Translations under genes and position numbers: made by a program
Assembly: GCA_947498625.1 (NCBI GenBank)
Contig: CANMKR010000001.1
Location: forward strand, 860,090 to 924,089
DNA: 64,000 nucleotides
From: an uncultured Kangiella sp.
GTDB lineage: Bacteria; Pseudomonadota; Gammaproteobacteria; Enterobacterales; Kangiellaceae
Direction: 5' to 3'
Shown: positions 51,440-54,497 of the stretch, piece by piece
How positions within the stretch are numbered: the first letter of the stretch is position 1
Layout of the letters: every line of letters starts with the position of its first letter
Notes under the pieces: model-generated
What the model saw: the letters and a program-made list of their open reading frames with translations, nothing else
Told to the model about the DNA's origin: nothing
Database searches by the model: none

Positions 51440-52729
51440 ATGAAGTGTACTAACTGTAGAGTTTCTCATGATGAAAGGGCATTTGAGTATTTAGATGAAG
51501 GGAAACAAAAAAAACTGACAGAATGTCTTTTCTGTAGATATAACCCTAAGAGAAGCTTAGGCACTGTAACCTTCTTACTTTTTGGTCTTCTCTACTCTTC
51601 TAGCTATTACTTTTATAGTATATCTATTGCTCCAAAATTAAGTATATACATTTTTTTCATATGCACATTATACGCTTCATTTTGGATATCGACCTTTATC
51701 CATGAGATTGGCCATGCTGTTGGATGTTTATTAGTTAGATATAAGATTAAAGCTATTGTTGTTGGAGATATAGATAAAGGTAAACGATTTAACGTCTTTG
51801 GAATTATGATAATTTTTTCTTCTAAATTAAAGCATGGACTTGTATATCATGACTATGGTGAAAATCATTCTAAAACTAAGTGTTTTATAGTTACTCTGTT
51901 GGGACCACTATTTAATTTAATTACGTTTATTATTCTGTTTTTTTTGTTCTTAGATATGAGTTCGTACAAACATAATCTAATTGAAACCATATTATTAGGA
52001 GTTATAGCTTTTATAAGTCTTTTCTTTTTTTTTATTAATATATGGCCCTTTAAGACGAAAGAAGACAATAGGGATGGACTTGTTAGAGATGGTATAACTC
52101 TTAGAGAGCTTCTTACGAAAGACGATTATTTTCAGAGTATTCATAAAGATAGATTGAGATGCGAGTACATTAAGCTTCATAATGATGGGGAATATATCAA
52201 AGCTAAGAAGATTGCAGATGAGCTATACAGCAGCAGTGATAGAAATGTATTTGATAAGTTTAATTATGCTCTGAGTTTATTGCAGTCGGAAGAGTTTTAT
52301 AGATCGGAAATGCTATATATTGAGTTGCTCGAAAATAGTGTTGATGAAAGATTTAAAGGAGTTATCTATAACAATTTAGCTTGTATAGAGTTTGAGTATT
52401 TATTGCAAGGAAAGGGCGATATAGAGAAGTGTGAAAAATATATTTATGAATCGACTAAATACCTTAATAACATAATTAACCCTCTGCTTATATGGTGTAG
52501 GTTAGCTTATCATCGAGAAGAATATGATTTAGCTTTGGACTATTTTGACTTCTTGCAAGCACCAGAAGAAGGAAAAGAGTTAATATCAGGATATTACATC
52601 TATAAGGGGTTAACTCAGCTTCAGTTAAACATGAAGTCGGAAGGGGAGCAAAATATAAAAAAAGGTATCGGCATATTCCCTAATACATCTCTTATAAAAA
52701 AATTAGAGTTAGAAAAATTTGCAGTTTGA
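51440..52729 (+). CDS. M50 (site-2 protease-like) membrane protein with N-terminal Cys pairs and C-terminal TPRs
   Basis: 429 aa. An N-terminal mini zinc ribbon (MKCTNC, then CLFC at about 29-32) precedes membrane helices. The zinc motif HEIGHAVG (about 87-94) and, after two further helices, N-I-W-P-F-K-T-K-E-D-N-R-D-G match the M50 H-E-x-x-H and N-x-x-P-x(n)-D-G signatures. The C-terminal 180 residues look like tetratricopeptide helices (DLALDYFDFLQAPEEG). The gene is clearly more AT-rich than its neighbours and sits only 2 bp after slyX, suggesting insertion by transfer. Substrate unknown. Confidence 0.75.
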   Translation: MKCTNCRVSHDERAFEYLDEGKQKKLTECLFCRYNPKRSLGTVTFLLFGLLYSSSYYFYSISIAPKLSIYIFFICTLYASFWISTFIHEIGHAVGCLLVRYKIKAIVVGDIDKGKRFNVFGIMIIFSSKLKHGLVYHDYGENHSKTKCFIVTLLGPLFNLITFIILFFLFLDMSSYKHNLIETILLGVIAFISLFFFFINIWPFKTKEDNRDGLVRDGITLRELLTKDDYFQSIHKDRLRCEYIKLHNDGEYIKAKKIADELYSSSDRNVFDKFNYALSLLQSEEFYRSEMLYIELLENSVDERFKGVIYNNLACIEFEYLLQGKGDIEKCEKYIYESTKYLNNIINPLLIWCRLAYHREEYDLALDYFDFLQAPEEGKELISGYYIYKGLTQLQLNMKSEGEQNIKKGIGIFPNTSLIKKLELEKFAV

Positions 52730-52746
52730 AAATTAATCATTATAAT
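52718..52746 (+). promoter_or_regulatory. Candidate promoter for the leader-rtcB transcript
   Basis: TTTGCA (52718-52723), 17-bp spacer, perfect TATAAT (52741-52746), overlapping the end of the M50 gene. The start site would be near 52753, followed at once by a GTTTGC/GCAAAC hairpin (52757-52774). No clear promoter was seen between the terminator at 52939 and rtcB. Confidence 0.5.
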
Positions 52747-52803
52747 CCTCAGCCAAGTTTGCAATGGCGCAAACATTTTAAAGAATCGATTTGGAGGTTC
52801 CCG

Positions 52804-52845
52804 ATGAAACAATTTAATTATGATTGGAGTTTAGAACAAAGCTAA
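52804..52845 (+). CDS. Putative leader peptide MKQFNYDWSLEQS upstream of rtcB
   Basis: A 13-codon ORF with a near-perfect GGAGG Shine-Dalgarno at 52793-52797 (6-nt spacing), the best in the whole region. The stop codon is followed directly by the first arm of a chain of competing hairpins ending in an intrinsic terminator. This is the layout of a ribosome-controlled attenuator. The codons are diverse, not repeats of one amino acid; Asn, Tyr and Asp codons are adjacent. The ORF and its site are read directly from the bases; the role is inferred. Confidence 0.6.
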   Translation: MKQFNYDWSLEQS

Positions 52846-52939
52846 ACCTCGGGCACCTTTATGAAAAGCTCGAGGTAATTATTATCTCGAGCCAAGAATC
52901 CTAAAACCCTTGGCCTCGAAAGAGTCTAAGGGTTTTTTT
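52846..52939 (+). promoter_or_regulatory. Attenuator with mutually exclusive hairpins before rtcB
   Basis: Four competing helices: (1:2) ACCTCGGGC 52846-52854 with GCTCGAGGT 52868-52876, 9 bp; (2:3) GCTCGAG 52868-52874 with CTCGAGC 52886-52892, 7 bp; (3:4) TCGAGCCAAG 52887-52896 with CTTGGCCTCGA 52909-52919, 10 bp with one bulge; terminator AAAACCCTT 52903-52911 with AAGGGTTTT 52928-52936 plus Ts. A ribosome at the leader stop covers arm 1, so 2:3 forms and the terminator follows. A stalled ribosome frees arm 1, so 1:2 and then 3:4 form and the terminator is broken. Confidence 0.6.
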
Positions 52940-53011
52940 ATGCCTGTATTTATAGTTTATTCGTTGCGCTATAGGTTTAGGTGATCCAATGGCATGGGAT
53001 AAAAAGGACTG

Positions 53012-53028
53012 CTAATTTTTAAAATTAG
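53012..53028. other. AT-rich dyad upstream of rtcB
   Basis: CTAATTTT, T, AAAATTAG: 8-bp perfect arms around one base. It could be an operator. The rest of 52940-53080 holds nothing more than a good AAAGGAAAGG Shine-Dalgarno (53063-53072) before rtcB. Confidence 0.3.
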
Positions 53029-53080
53029 TTTTAGACAGTAGTGATACTGACAATATGAAAATAAAGGAAAGGTAAAGAAT

Positions 53081-54277
53081 ATGCCTATTCAAAGAGTATT
53101 TAGCAAAGGCAAAGTGCCGGTAAAGGTTTATACCGAAGATATAGCACCAGAAGCTATTCAACAGTTGGAAAATATGTCGCACTTACCTTTTATTCATTCG
53201 CATATCGCAGCAATGCCAGATGTGCACTTGGGTAAAGGGGCAACCGTTGGATCGGTGATTCCAACTAAAAAAGCGATTATTCCTGCAGCGGTCGGGGTGG
53301 ATATTGGTTGTGGGATGAATGCGGTGCGTTTATCGTTAAAAGCTTATCAATTACCGGATAACTTAAAGCCCATTCGTATGGCAATTGAGAATAAAGTTCC
53401 TGTGGGCTTTGCGGCTCATAAATGGACTGGGTTTGACGATAAGTATTCAAGACCATTAATGGATGGTTTAGATAAAATTATCGCCAAGCATCCGGAGATT
53501 ATTAAGCGAATGAAGGCGCCACATAAAACACCGATTATTCAAATGGGAACCTTAGGTGGAGGAAACCACTTTATAGAATTATGCCTAGATGAGAATAACG
53601 ATGTTTGGGTGATGTTGCATTCAGGTTCGCGCGGTATAGGTAATCAAATTGGCCAGTATTTTATTCAATTGGCGAAGAAAGAGATGCAAACGCATCATAT
53701 TAATTTGCCAGATAAAGATTTAGCTTATTTAAGCGAAGGTACTGAATCTTTTGACGATTACTGGTTTGCGGTTAAGTGGGGGCAAGATTATGCCTACAAA
53801 AACCGCCAAAAAATGATGGCTTTAGTGTTGGATGTATTAAAACAACAGTTGCCAGAATTTAGCGTGACTAAGGAAGCGATTAACTGTCATCACAATTATG
53901 TCGAGATGGAAAATCACTTTGGAGAAAACGTTTACTTAACGCGTAAAGGCGCTATCCGCGCAAGAGAAGGTGATTTAGGGATTATTCCGGGCTCAATGGG
54001 TGCAAAGTCATTTATTGTTCGAGGAAAAGGTAACCCCCAATCATTCTGCTCATGTTCGCATGGCGCTGGTCGATCATTAAGTCGAACCGCTGCTAAGAAG
54101 TTGTTTAAGCGTTCTGACTTAGAGATGCAAACTAAAGGCGTTGAGTGCCGCAAAGATAGTCAAGTCATTGACGAAATTCCTGCGGCTTATAAGGATATTG
54201 ACGTGGTTATGGAAAACCAGCATGACTTGGTTGAAGTAGTGCATACTTTAAAGCAAGTAGTATGTATCAAGGGCTAG
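53081..54277 (+). CDS. rtcB: RNA-splicing ligase RtcB (3'-phosphate/5'-hydroxyl RNA ligase)
   Basis: 398 aa. RtcB joins RNA ends with 2',3'-cyclic phosphate or 3'-phosphate to 5'-OH, using GTP and Mn; it heals cleaved tRNA and rRNA. Metal and nucleotide ligands are present: Asp and Cys in AVGVDIGCGMNAVR, His in GGGNHFIELC, His in LHSGSRGIGN, CHHNYVE, and the guanylated His in SHGAGRSLSR, with PGSMGAKSFIVRG. Unlike E. coli there is no rtcA or rtcR beside it; instead it has a leader peptide/attenuator upstream and an ArfA-like ORF downstream. Confidence 0.95.
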   Translation: MPIQRVFSKGKVPVKVYTEDIAPEAIQQLENMSHLPFIHSHIAAMPDVHLGKGATVGSVIPTKKAIIPAAVGVDIGCGMNAVRLSLKAYQLPDNLKPIRMAIENKVPVGFAAHKWTGFDDKYSRPLMDGLDKIIAKHPEIIKRMKAPHKTPIIQMGTLGGGNHFIELCLDENNDVWVMLHSGSRGIGNQIGQYFIQLAKKEMQTHHINLPDKDLAYLSEGTESFDDYWFAVKWGQDYAYKNRQKMMALVLDVLKQQLPEFSVTKEAINCHHNYVEMENHFGENVYLTRKGAIRAREGDLGIIPGSMGAKSFIVRGKGNPQSFCSCSHGAGRSLSRTAAKKLFKRSDLEMQTKGVECRKDSQVIDEIPAAYKDIDVVMENQHDLVEVVHTLKQVVCIKG

Positions 54278-54314: not shown

Positions 54315-54497
54315 ATGCAAACAAAAAAATTTAAGCGGAGAAATCCTGTGGCACGAAATCTCTATCAAAATAGAGGTGGAGTCCACGAAAAATCTAAAAA
54401 AGCAAAAAGGGAGGCGAGCAAACAAGAAACAAAACGCAAAGTTTCTGAGTGGGCAAGCCACTCTTCTTCTATCTTCCTAAGACTATTTTTTCGATAA
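54315..54497 (+). CDS. Small basic protein, ArfA-like putative ribosome-rescue factor
   Basis: 60 codons. The Shine-Dalgarno AGAGG precedes the ATG. KRRNPVARNL, then V-H-E-K-S-K-K-A-K-R resembles the core of ArfA (a nonpolar N-A-x-x-x-L helix followed by V-E-K-N-K-K-G-K), though distantly. As in E. coli arfA, a terminator-like hairpin (54447-54463 plus T-rich tail) lies inside the coding region at codons 45-50, and the part encoded beyond it (SSIFLRLFFR) is hydrophobic. In arfA this makes non-stop mRNA cleared by tmRNA. The last 15 bases overlap the convergent transporter gene. Similarity is my reading, not a search result. Confidence 0.5.
   Translation: MQTKKFKRRNPVARNLYQNRGGVHEKSKKAKREASKQETKRKVSEWASHSSSIFLRLFFR
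54447..54476 (+). terminator. Terminator-like hairpin inside the ArfA-like ORF
   Basis: GAGTGG (54447-54452), GCAAG, CCACTC (54458-54463), then TTCTTCTATCTTC. On the minus strand the tail is A-rich, so it can act only on the plus strand. Confidence 0.45.

Follow-up and report, generated by a model that had tools for sequence, protein, structure and literature searches.

A leader RNA predicted to sense stuck translation upstream of the RNA ligase gene rtcB in Kangiella and other Gammaproteobacteria

How is an RNA-repair gene switched on in a bacterium whose genome yields no match to its described regulator? RtcB is a core RNA-repair ligase, and its described control, as far as the available portions of the articles go, is exerted by RtcR and sigma-54, which act on rtcBA in Escherichia coli and Salmonella upon RNA or translation damage (PMC12606134, PMC7790460). 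The question is raised by a stretch of 64,000 nucleotides (nt) from an uncultured Kangiella sp. (contig CANMKR010000001.1 of assembly GCA_947498625.1, positions 860,090 to 924,089; hereafter, the window), which carries on its forward strand an rtcB gene for an RNA ligase of 398 amino acids (53081-54277; PF01139, E 5.6e-131; RtcB structure 1uc2 in the PDB, E 4.2e-35). RtcR (PF06956) and RtcA (PF01137) gave no match in the genome of the window, an E. coli control being positive for both. We propose that the answer lies in the RNA leader of the gene, which is likely to act as a transcription attenuator under ribosome control, detecting early translation that has become stuck and in response turning on RNA repair by RtcB.

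A first-pass annotation, made from the sequence alone, had placed a promoter, a Shine-Dalgarno sequence (SD), a 13-codon open reading frame (ORF), a set of helices and a terminator at 52718-52939, ahead of rtcB, and direct reading found all of them there, on the forward strand. The sigma-70-type promoter TTTGCA-17-TATAAT (52718-52746; -35 hexamer at 52718-52723, 17-nt spacer, -10 hexamer at 52741-52746) is a pattern match with both hexamers invariant in the three rtcB-bearing Kangiella. It is followed by the SD GGAGGT (52793-52798) and by the leader ORF MKQFNYDWSLEQS (52804-52845; ATG at 52804, stop TAA at 52843-52845), so that a translatable ORF with its SD stands before an intrinsic terminator. 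Arm 1 (52846-52861) begins, as the annotation had noted, at the base right after the stop codon; its bases 52846-52854 pair with arm 2, and 52849-52861 with the SD and start codon. Arm 2 (52868-52878) has arm 1 or arm 3 as its partner, and arm 3 (52882-52896) can face either arm 2 (through 52882-52892) or arm 4 (through 52887-52896). Arm 4 (52903-52919, of which 52909-52919 pairs with arm 3) comprises the 5' arm and the loop start of the terminator, and arm 5 (52922-52939) its 3' arm and T-tract (52933-52939). A further helix, SD:1, joins 52792-52804 to 52849-52861; it is found in the minimum free energy (MFE) structure, and the equivalent helix covaries in other groups. In the predicted ribosome-free fold the SD is paired with the arm 1 region at 0.97. 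General scans added little: a pattern scan of the window for promoters and terminators found one promoter-type match against 3.2 expected in shuffles, which is not above chance, and reported no terminator, the scan being uninformative, while an Rfam scan of the window had tRNA as its sole match.

The leader is well kept among the few close relatives in which it can be compared. The rtcB gene was present in 3 of 20 Kangiella genomes searched, including that of the window, and the closest named matches of the window RtcB belong to Kangiella sp. HZ709 (L031) and to an uncultured Kangiella sp. (L032). Compared with the window, the two other rtcB-bearing Kangiella show 96% and 82% identity over the leader stretch, and no change among the three affects its -35 and -10 hexamers, SD, codons 5-13, stop codon, T-tract or the arms of helices 1:2, 2:3, 3:4 and 4:5, so that conservation of ORF and helix arms in close relatives, which the annotation had asked to be checked by alignment, was borne out. 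Bases 52860-52861, with which the 3' side of SD:1 ends, do vary, and so do codons 3-4, which read QF, QF and PV, two of the leaders starting MKQF. Homology with the window begins at 52713 (L031) or 52714 (L032), 4-5 nt before the -35 hexamer, and the genes upstream differ; leader and rtcB therefore behave as one unit.

The predicted states of the RNA depend on where a ribosome stands. Equilibrium folding of the complete leader was tried and set aside as a test of the switch, the terminator winning nearly always, and truncated RNA was folded instead, before completion of the terminator (arm 4 and loop out), with a ribosome footprint of -15/+13. With a ribosome at the start codon or at codon 4 or 6, helix 1:2 formed at 0.95, 2:3 at 0.02-0.03 and the long form of 3:4 at 0.93-0.94; with a ribosome at the stop codon the three values were 0.00, 1.00 and 0.00. 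Both outcomes agree with the first-pass proposal, in which a ribosome held early favours 1:2 and 3:4, and one at the stop masks arm 1, lets 2:3 form and frees the terminator. Its third expectation, that 1:2 and 3:4 would also form and permit read-through when no ribosome is present, found no support: here 2:3 reached 0.93 and both 1:2 and long 3:4 only 0.01, with the SD and start codon (52792-52804) paired to 52849-52861 and occupying arm 1. The direction of these states was the same at the three RNA ends tried. For later stalls the fate of the SD matters. When it was also covered, stalls at codons 8 and 10 were "on" (0.99, 0.00 and 0.96 for 1:2, 2:3 and long 3:4), and a stall at codon 12 was mixed (0.39, 0.41 and 0.56); when it was free to re-pair behind the ribosome, stalls at codons 8-10 were mostly "off", and a second ribosome there turned them "on".

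Leaders like that of the window were identified before 113 related rtcB genes from several groups of Gammaproteobacteria, among them Acinetobacter. Of these loci, 3 are from Kangiella, 5 from other Kangiellaceae, 32 from a family labelled f99, 14 from one labelled f57 and 47 from Moraxellaceae (with Acinetobacter; label f32, identified by tree position), leaving 12 others. A blind count over 200 distinct upstream regions of related rtcB genes points the same way, since an intrinsic terminator was called in 104 of them by a rule blind to ORFs, and 75 of these 104 hold an ORF of 7-16 codons whose SD matches over 5 nt or more and whose end lies 30-110 nt ahead of the terminator, against 1.8 in dinucleotide shuffles. 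The set of 113 derives from 97 automatic calls, of which 13 were dropped as doubtful, with 15 loci added by eye (one at a dropped locus) and 14 by an SD/post-stop motif; one leader (L131) has no terminator by the folding rule. In an rtcB tree of 103 rows (large groups thinned by rule, quick method, support by the Shimodaira-Hasegawa-like approximate likelihood ratio test, SH-aLRT, only), 48 of 49 leader rows fall in one group of 73 (SH-aLRT 92), together with 25 genes without a leader in the set. Eight rows of sigma-54-type rtcB, a label given to nine of twelve motif-bearing loci (L028, L175 and L178 being left out), lie in another group of 17 (SH-aLRT 99), along with 8 others and the remaining leader row. 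As for mobile DNA, leaders were judged by eye to be present in two of four plasmid-collection rtcB loci fetched, both from A. baumannii; none was seen by eye at the single phage rtcB locus fetched, and the six stretches of viral contigs matching the SD-start 17-mer held no rtcB that we found. Psychrobacter presents short ORFs (e.g., MSKNYNS) or decayed versions upstream of rtcB by eye (L049, L051, L056 and others), and its loci examined by the terminator rule showed no terminator; the attenuator may be eroding there.

The pairing plan (SD:1, 1:2, 2:3, 3:4 and the terminator 4:5) recurs across groups despite differing post-stop sequences. Pairings outdid all 12 of 12 dinucleotide-shuffled spacers for 2:3 in 63 of 103 loci, for 1:2 in 31 and for 3:4 in 45, with 7.9 expected for each. 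Compensatory changes, also proposed as a check, were found outside Kangiella, two groups showing them for SD:1 and 2:3 and one of these also for 1:2 and 3:4. Among 34 aligned rows (of 46 references) in Moraxellaceae, pairs changed on both sides occur in SD:1 (four) and 2:3 (two), changes in 3:4 being one-sided only; 94.0% of cells pair against 28-38% when slid, and the six double-change pairs compare with 2.5 in shuffles. In f99 (24 rows of 32 references), 1:2 and 3:4 are 98.7% paired with double changes at four pairs (against 0.6 in shuffles and 0-1 when slid), and SD:1 and 2:3 are 89.3% paired with six (2.4 in shuffles). Because the rows are related, these shuffle figures are not probabilities. 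As SD:1 and 1:2 share bases, and likewise 2:3 and 3:4, mutually exclusive helices are each kept in f99. Ribosome-free RNA pairs its SD and start codon with post-stop RNA above 0.6 at 88 of 102 loci, against 52% of shuffles (all 42 in Moraxellaceae against 57%; all three in Kangiella, where shuffles reach 80%). A coarse measure of how free the 5' arm of the terminator is, with a ribosome at the stop versus early, gave a mean shift of +0.087 over 102 distinct loci, against -0.005 in mononucleotide shuffles, with 50 up and 11 down (p 2e-8, a value that ignores relatedness); it was up in 28 of 31 f99 loci (45% in shuffles), 13 of 14 in f57 (26%) and 4 of 5 in other Kangiellaceae. With the SD covered, this arm is on average little free for ribosomes at all but the last two or three codons, a pattern common to f99, f57, Kangiellaceae and Kangiella.

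From the elements, conservation, pairings and fold states computed here we infer a course of transcription and termination, with the kinetic capture of arm 4 by arm 3 at its centre, as well as its inducers and benefit. RNA polymerase would start at the promoter at 52718-52746. In the absence of a ribosome, the arm 1 region would sequester the leader SD and start codon by pairing with them, leaving 2:3 to form and transcription to stop at 4:5; a ribosome completing the 13 codons would cover arm 1 at the stop codon, and again 2:3 would form and transcription stop. A ribosome loaded but held before about the last two or three codons would leave arm 1 free while the SD stays covered, by that ribosome itself early on and by a queued one later. 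Helix 1:2 would then form, arm 3 would take arm 4, the terminator would be delayed, and rtcB would be transcribed, probably with a small basic partner gene. Drugs, toxins or RNA damage slowing elongation would be likely inducers.

The leaders' peptides are in keeping with a monitor of early elongation in general. Across 26 distinct 9-codon leaders of Moraxellaceae the three codon positions are about equally variable (entropy 1.03, 1.20 and 1.09 bits for positions 1, 2 and 3), so that the suggested check for purifying selection on the peptide shows none there. What the leaders keep is a strong SD, their length and the position of the stop. No runs of one amino acid, of the kind that serve as control codons in trp- or his-type leaders, were seen in the leader list, only a modest excess of glutamine (Gln). 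As peptides are not conserved and Gln alone exceeds shuffles in every group, we read the leader as a general stall sensor, perhaps weighted to Gln. In the folds almost any codon could report a stall, which would explain the unconserved peptide, and Gln codons would possibly be preferred stall sites.

The distribution of the protein regulators was also compared. A sigma-54 -24/-12 motif was found upstream of none of the 113 leader loci (0 of 116 with three duplicates) and of 12 of 125 other rtcB loci (12 of 122 without them), the duplicates being records of leader loci (L031, L032 and L245) first counted among the others here and in the small-protein counts below, and then recounted without them. 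RtcR was found in 30 of 80 genomes tested: none of the 3 rtcB-bearing Kangiella, none of 10 leader genomes of f57, 14 of 21 in f99 and 10 of 19 in f32, so that leader-bearing rtcB often coexists with RtcR in the last two. In genome G031 rtcR adjoins a second, sigma-54-type rtcB, and in G021 some 3 kb separate it from a second rtcB. A search of 28 genomes for RtcA located it in 8, none of the 3 Kangiella being among these. An expression result comes from A. baumannii ATCC19606, in which, in the accessible part of the report, an "RtcB family protein" rises 2.6-fold after 10 min at half the minimum inhibitory concentration of minocycline, among 15 genes that go up (PMC9741440). Three A. baumannii records of chromosome size (H1, H3 and H4) hold one RtcB place each at E<=1e-100, and the one fetched, that of H1 (L132), carries the leader; we infer that the induced gene, A6739_RS02970, is the A. 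baumannii leader locus. Such induction would be independent support for a stall monitor, not proof.

A number of observations weigh against the stall-sensing attenuator. Many of the sampled leader loci are near relatives, and arms 1:2 to 4:5 are invariant in Kangiella, so that the window's own lineage yields no covariation. A crude pairing measure puts 1:2 of Kangiella at -0.6, weaker than the -1.5 of shuffles, although folds do form it, and slid controls also give double changes (2-5 vs 6 in Moraxellaceae, 1-4 vs 6 for SD:1 and 2:3 in f99). The outcome for codons 4-8 varies with footprint size: at -12/+11, with the SD uncovered and at the last RNA end, 1:2 drops to 0.30 with the ribosome at codon 4 and to 0.13 with it at codon 6. 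The exclusive, ribosome-dependent choice of terminator or antiterminator is found in the truncated folds of the window, in f99 and in f57, and is unseen by the free-arm measure in Moraxellaceae (2 up and 7 down of 42), where per-codon arm freedom is also flat; the 7 "other" loci are divided (3 up, 3 down). The same coarse measure shows no stop-versus-early shift in the three Kangiella, where 2:3 is accompanied by a short 3:4 (CCAAG:CTTGG), which hides from it the switching of the long 3:4. Folded at full length, the leader forms the terminator almost whatever the ribosome state (P about 0.97 in the window), and hence the switch must be kinetic; a kinetic decision is also assumed for known attenuators. 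Finally, Gln is enriched in every group, which is unexpected for a purely codon-blind sensor.

This last point leads to a sensor that responds to stalls at Gln, and perhaps phenylalanine (Phe), codons early in the leader, as the armZ leader of Pseudomonas aeruginosa does. Against shuffles of the nucleotides within leaders (43% A, 12% G), Gln was counted 28 vs 18.0, 21 vs 15.0, 18 vs 7.1 and 20 vs 13.0 times in the four groups of the edited set. This set is not blind, its leaders being partly hand-picked, and composition was recounted on the 97 automatic calls (37 vs 21.6, 14 vs 9.1, 12 vs 4.2 and 11 vs 5.4); over groups and both sets the excess is 1.4- to 2.8-fold, with p 0.003-0.083. Gln is present in 67 of 94 distinct edited leaders (about 41 expected) and tends to stand early (19 of 21 in f99, 13 of 18 in f57), Phe exceeds shuffles in f99 and f57, and the MKQF of two Kangiella leaders recalls Q3 and F4 of the armZ leader peptide PA5471.1, which matter for induction in P. 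aeruginosa in the part of the report available (PMC13041342). Set against this, 27 of 94 leaders lack Gln, the third Kangiella has PV instead of QF, p is 0.07-0.08 in f99, many amino acids were tested, and the sequence needs of SD:1 could bias the codons. We regard a sensor centred on Gln codons as unlikely.

The strength of the leader SD could also fit a sensor of failed initiation, in which ribosomes that have lost the anti-SD by cutting of the 16S 3' end leave the leader untranslated and rtcB is read through. Cut 16S 3' ends are a reported RtcB substrate, the leader SD pairs with the anti-SD at a median of -8.9 kcal/mol against -3.7 for the SD of rtcB itself (stronger in 103 of 112), and the peptide is free to vary. 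Ribosome-free RNA is, however, predicted to form SD:1 and 2:3 and to terminate, and we judge this alternative improbable.

Codon content raised another candidate, a sensor of cut Asn, Tyr, His and Asp tRNAs; these have GUN anticodons and are the targets of colicin E5. It was striking by eye, with FNYD in the window leader and N, H, Y and D in many others, and in 60 non-Moraxellaceae leaders the four together number 164 against 142.0+-10.2 in shuffles (p 0.019; N 97 vs 61.9). It then failed the composition controls: the excess is of Asn alone and significant in one family (f99), H is not enriched, and Y and D lie below shuffles; the four are depleted in 34 Moraxellaceae leaders (35 vs 59.8; blind set 56 vs 86.1) and not commoner early in the leader (0.25 vs 0.29 in f99, 0.22 vs 0.27 in f57). 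It is accordingly rated as quite improbable.

A constitutive leader, whose terminator trims expression or ends a small RNA, with an incidental ORF and an rtcB promoter after 52940, would fit the roughly 140 nt between terminator and rtcB start and the full-length folds that nearly always terminate. The SD-ORF-terminator order (75 of 104 regions) is hard to square with it, as are the pairing of SD and start codon with post-stop RNA, which covaries in two groups, and a simple pattern scan of 52940-53080 that gave no sigma-70-like match; such a leader is very improbable. The untranslated stretch before rtcB also holds a small hairpin, CAGTAGTGATACTG (53036-53049), kept in the three Kangiella although its surroundings partly vary. 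A nascent-peptide arrest signal for one ligand or drug is scarcely credible, even if the leader is of fitting size and the armZ leader responds to ribosome drugs, given no obvious motif common to the groups and the even variation of codon positions in Moraxellaceae.

With the stall-sensing attenuator as the preferred reading, its closest described counterpart is the armZ leader. In the accessible parts of the reports, PA5471.1 is a 13-amino-acid leader about 250 bp upstream of armZ (PA5471), an RtcB-like gene of P. aeruginosa; ribosome-targeting drugs or loss of Cca lead to ribosome stalling and transcription proceeds, and complete translation leads to the terminator (PMC3516279, PMC12057347, PMC13041342). 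Leader size, the RtcB-family gene, the proposed transcription attenuation and induction by ribosome drugs are thus shared. However, armZ is linked to a release-factor gene, a gene order by which we assign it to the RtcB2-PrfH branch, and ArmZ acts on MexZ, whereas the window rtcB belongs to another clade and is followed by a 60-amino-acid ORF and then an opposite-strand gene, with no release-factor gene behind. Moreover, in those texts armZ comes on when the leader region is deleted or contains an early stop, whereas a lack of ribosomes is predicted to leave the window leader off; Q3 and F4 are the only residues of the armZ leader available for comparison. The first-pass remark that no ribosome-mediated attenuation of rtcB is known stands for rtcB proper, for which none appeared among the paper titles listed in a literature search that covered subscription papers thinly, the relevant ones concerning armZ/MexXY of P. 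aeruginosa; it does not extend to the RtcB-like armZ, for which attenuation has been proposed. The words "leader" and "attenuat" are absent from the available portions of the texts on the RFH operon (PMC1586002), RtcB2-PrfH (PMC9223846), an Rtc model (PMC12606134) and RtcR (PMC7790460).

Six RtcB2-type genes (four with a GGQ release-factor frame behind) are 28.5-30% identical to the window RtcB. Their loci (L020, L021, L022, L028, L029 and L030) carry a different leader. Within a short ORF, CTTTTGC or CTTTGC is the partner of an SD (for example, GCAAAGGAG); next comes another helix, and most of these leaders also have a CCAATT able to pair with AATTGG at the SD of rtcB2. This layout looks like translational attenuation, likely related to PA5471.1. 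As to more classical systems, his-type attenuators also have a leader ORF and overlapping alternative helices, of which a stalled ribosome masks the first element; the window leader differs in having no single-amino-acid run and in that its first element is its own SD and start codon. RtcR/sigma-54 control of rtcBA likewise couples an rtcB gene to RNA or translation damage, but through a protein sensor and a sigma-54 promoter, neither of which was found at the window locus. On this reading, the leader would bring a mechanism of a familiar type to a new gene clade, adding an SD gate and showing little codon specificity.

Downstream of rtcB, the window encodes on the same strand a small basic protein of 60 amino acids (54315-54497; RNPVAR..GGVHEKSKKAKR), a probable operon partner with same-strand matches in relatives. 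Among the 83 leader loci long enough to judge the downstream gene, 66 have such a match at E<=1 and 45 at E<=1e-3, against 33 and 6 of 94 others, and in the 17 Moraxellaceae loci listed it begins 16-25 nt after rtcB. A basic protein of about 50-60 amino acids with RNPVA...GGVHEKS..KR follows leader-controlled rtcB in many lineages, including Acinetobacter (L132, L168 and others). It is probably co-transcribed with rtcB and possibly binds ribosomes or RNA; four members scanned gave no significant Pfam match. A family of about 310 amino acids lies behind rtcB; it was counted at 32 leader loci and at 9 others, L032 among the latter being a duplicate record of a leader locus. Its members (L032:3757-4722, L106:2743-3690, L004:326-1258 and others) often precede the small protein, and the lineage of the window is without it. 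No match was obtained in Pfam (two members), NCBIfam (one) or PHROG (25 of 25), and an AlphaFold model (predicted local distance difference test, pLDDT, 89) bears a weak resemblance to GNAT acetyltransferases (best PDB E 0.054). A widespread operon of rtcB, often the ~310-amino-acid protein, and the ~50-amino-acid basic protein, governed by a stuck-ribosome RNA gate, is put forward tentatively. On the other side of the leader, a 429-amino-acid gene with a sub-threshold M50 peptidase match (51440-52729) lies between slyX and the rtcB block; it is absent from L032 despite shared neighbouring genes, and L031 has no match at that place.

In a broader sense, an RNA, rather than a protein sensor, may govern a widespread gammaproteobacterial damage-response operon, permitting expression only while a ribosome that began a throw-away ORF is unable to complete it; such a largely peptide-independent gate would tell stuck from absent and from working ribosomes. 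We hold this to be a nearly even call. If true, an RNA-only route that reads ribosome distress would explain how repair is switched in bacteria without RtcR, and the RNA-repair enzyme would be made when protein synthesis is in trouble. Translation inhibitors would thereby be linked to RNA repair in Acinetobacter, and the armZ leader would join a wider pattern of leaders before RtcB-family genes.

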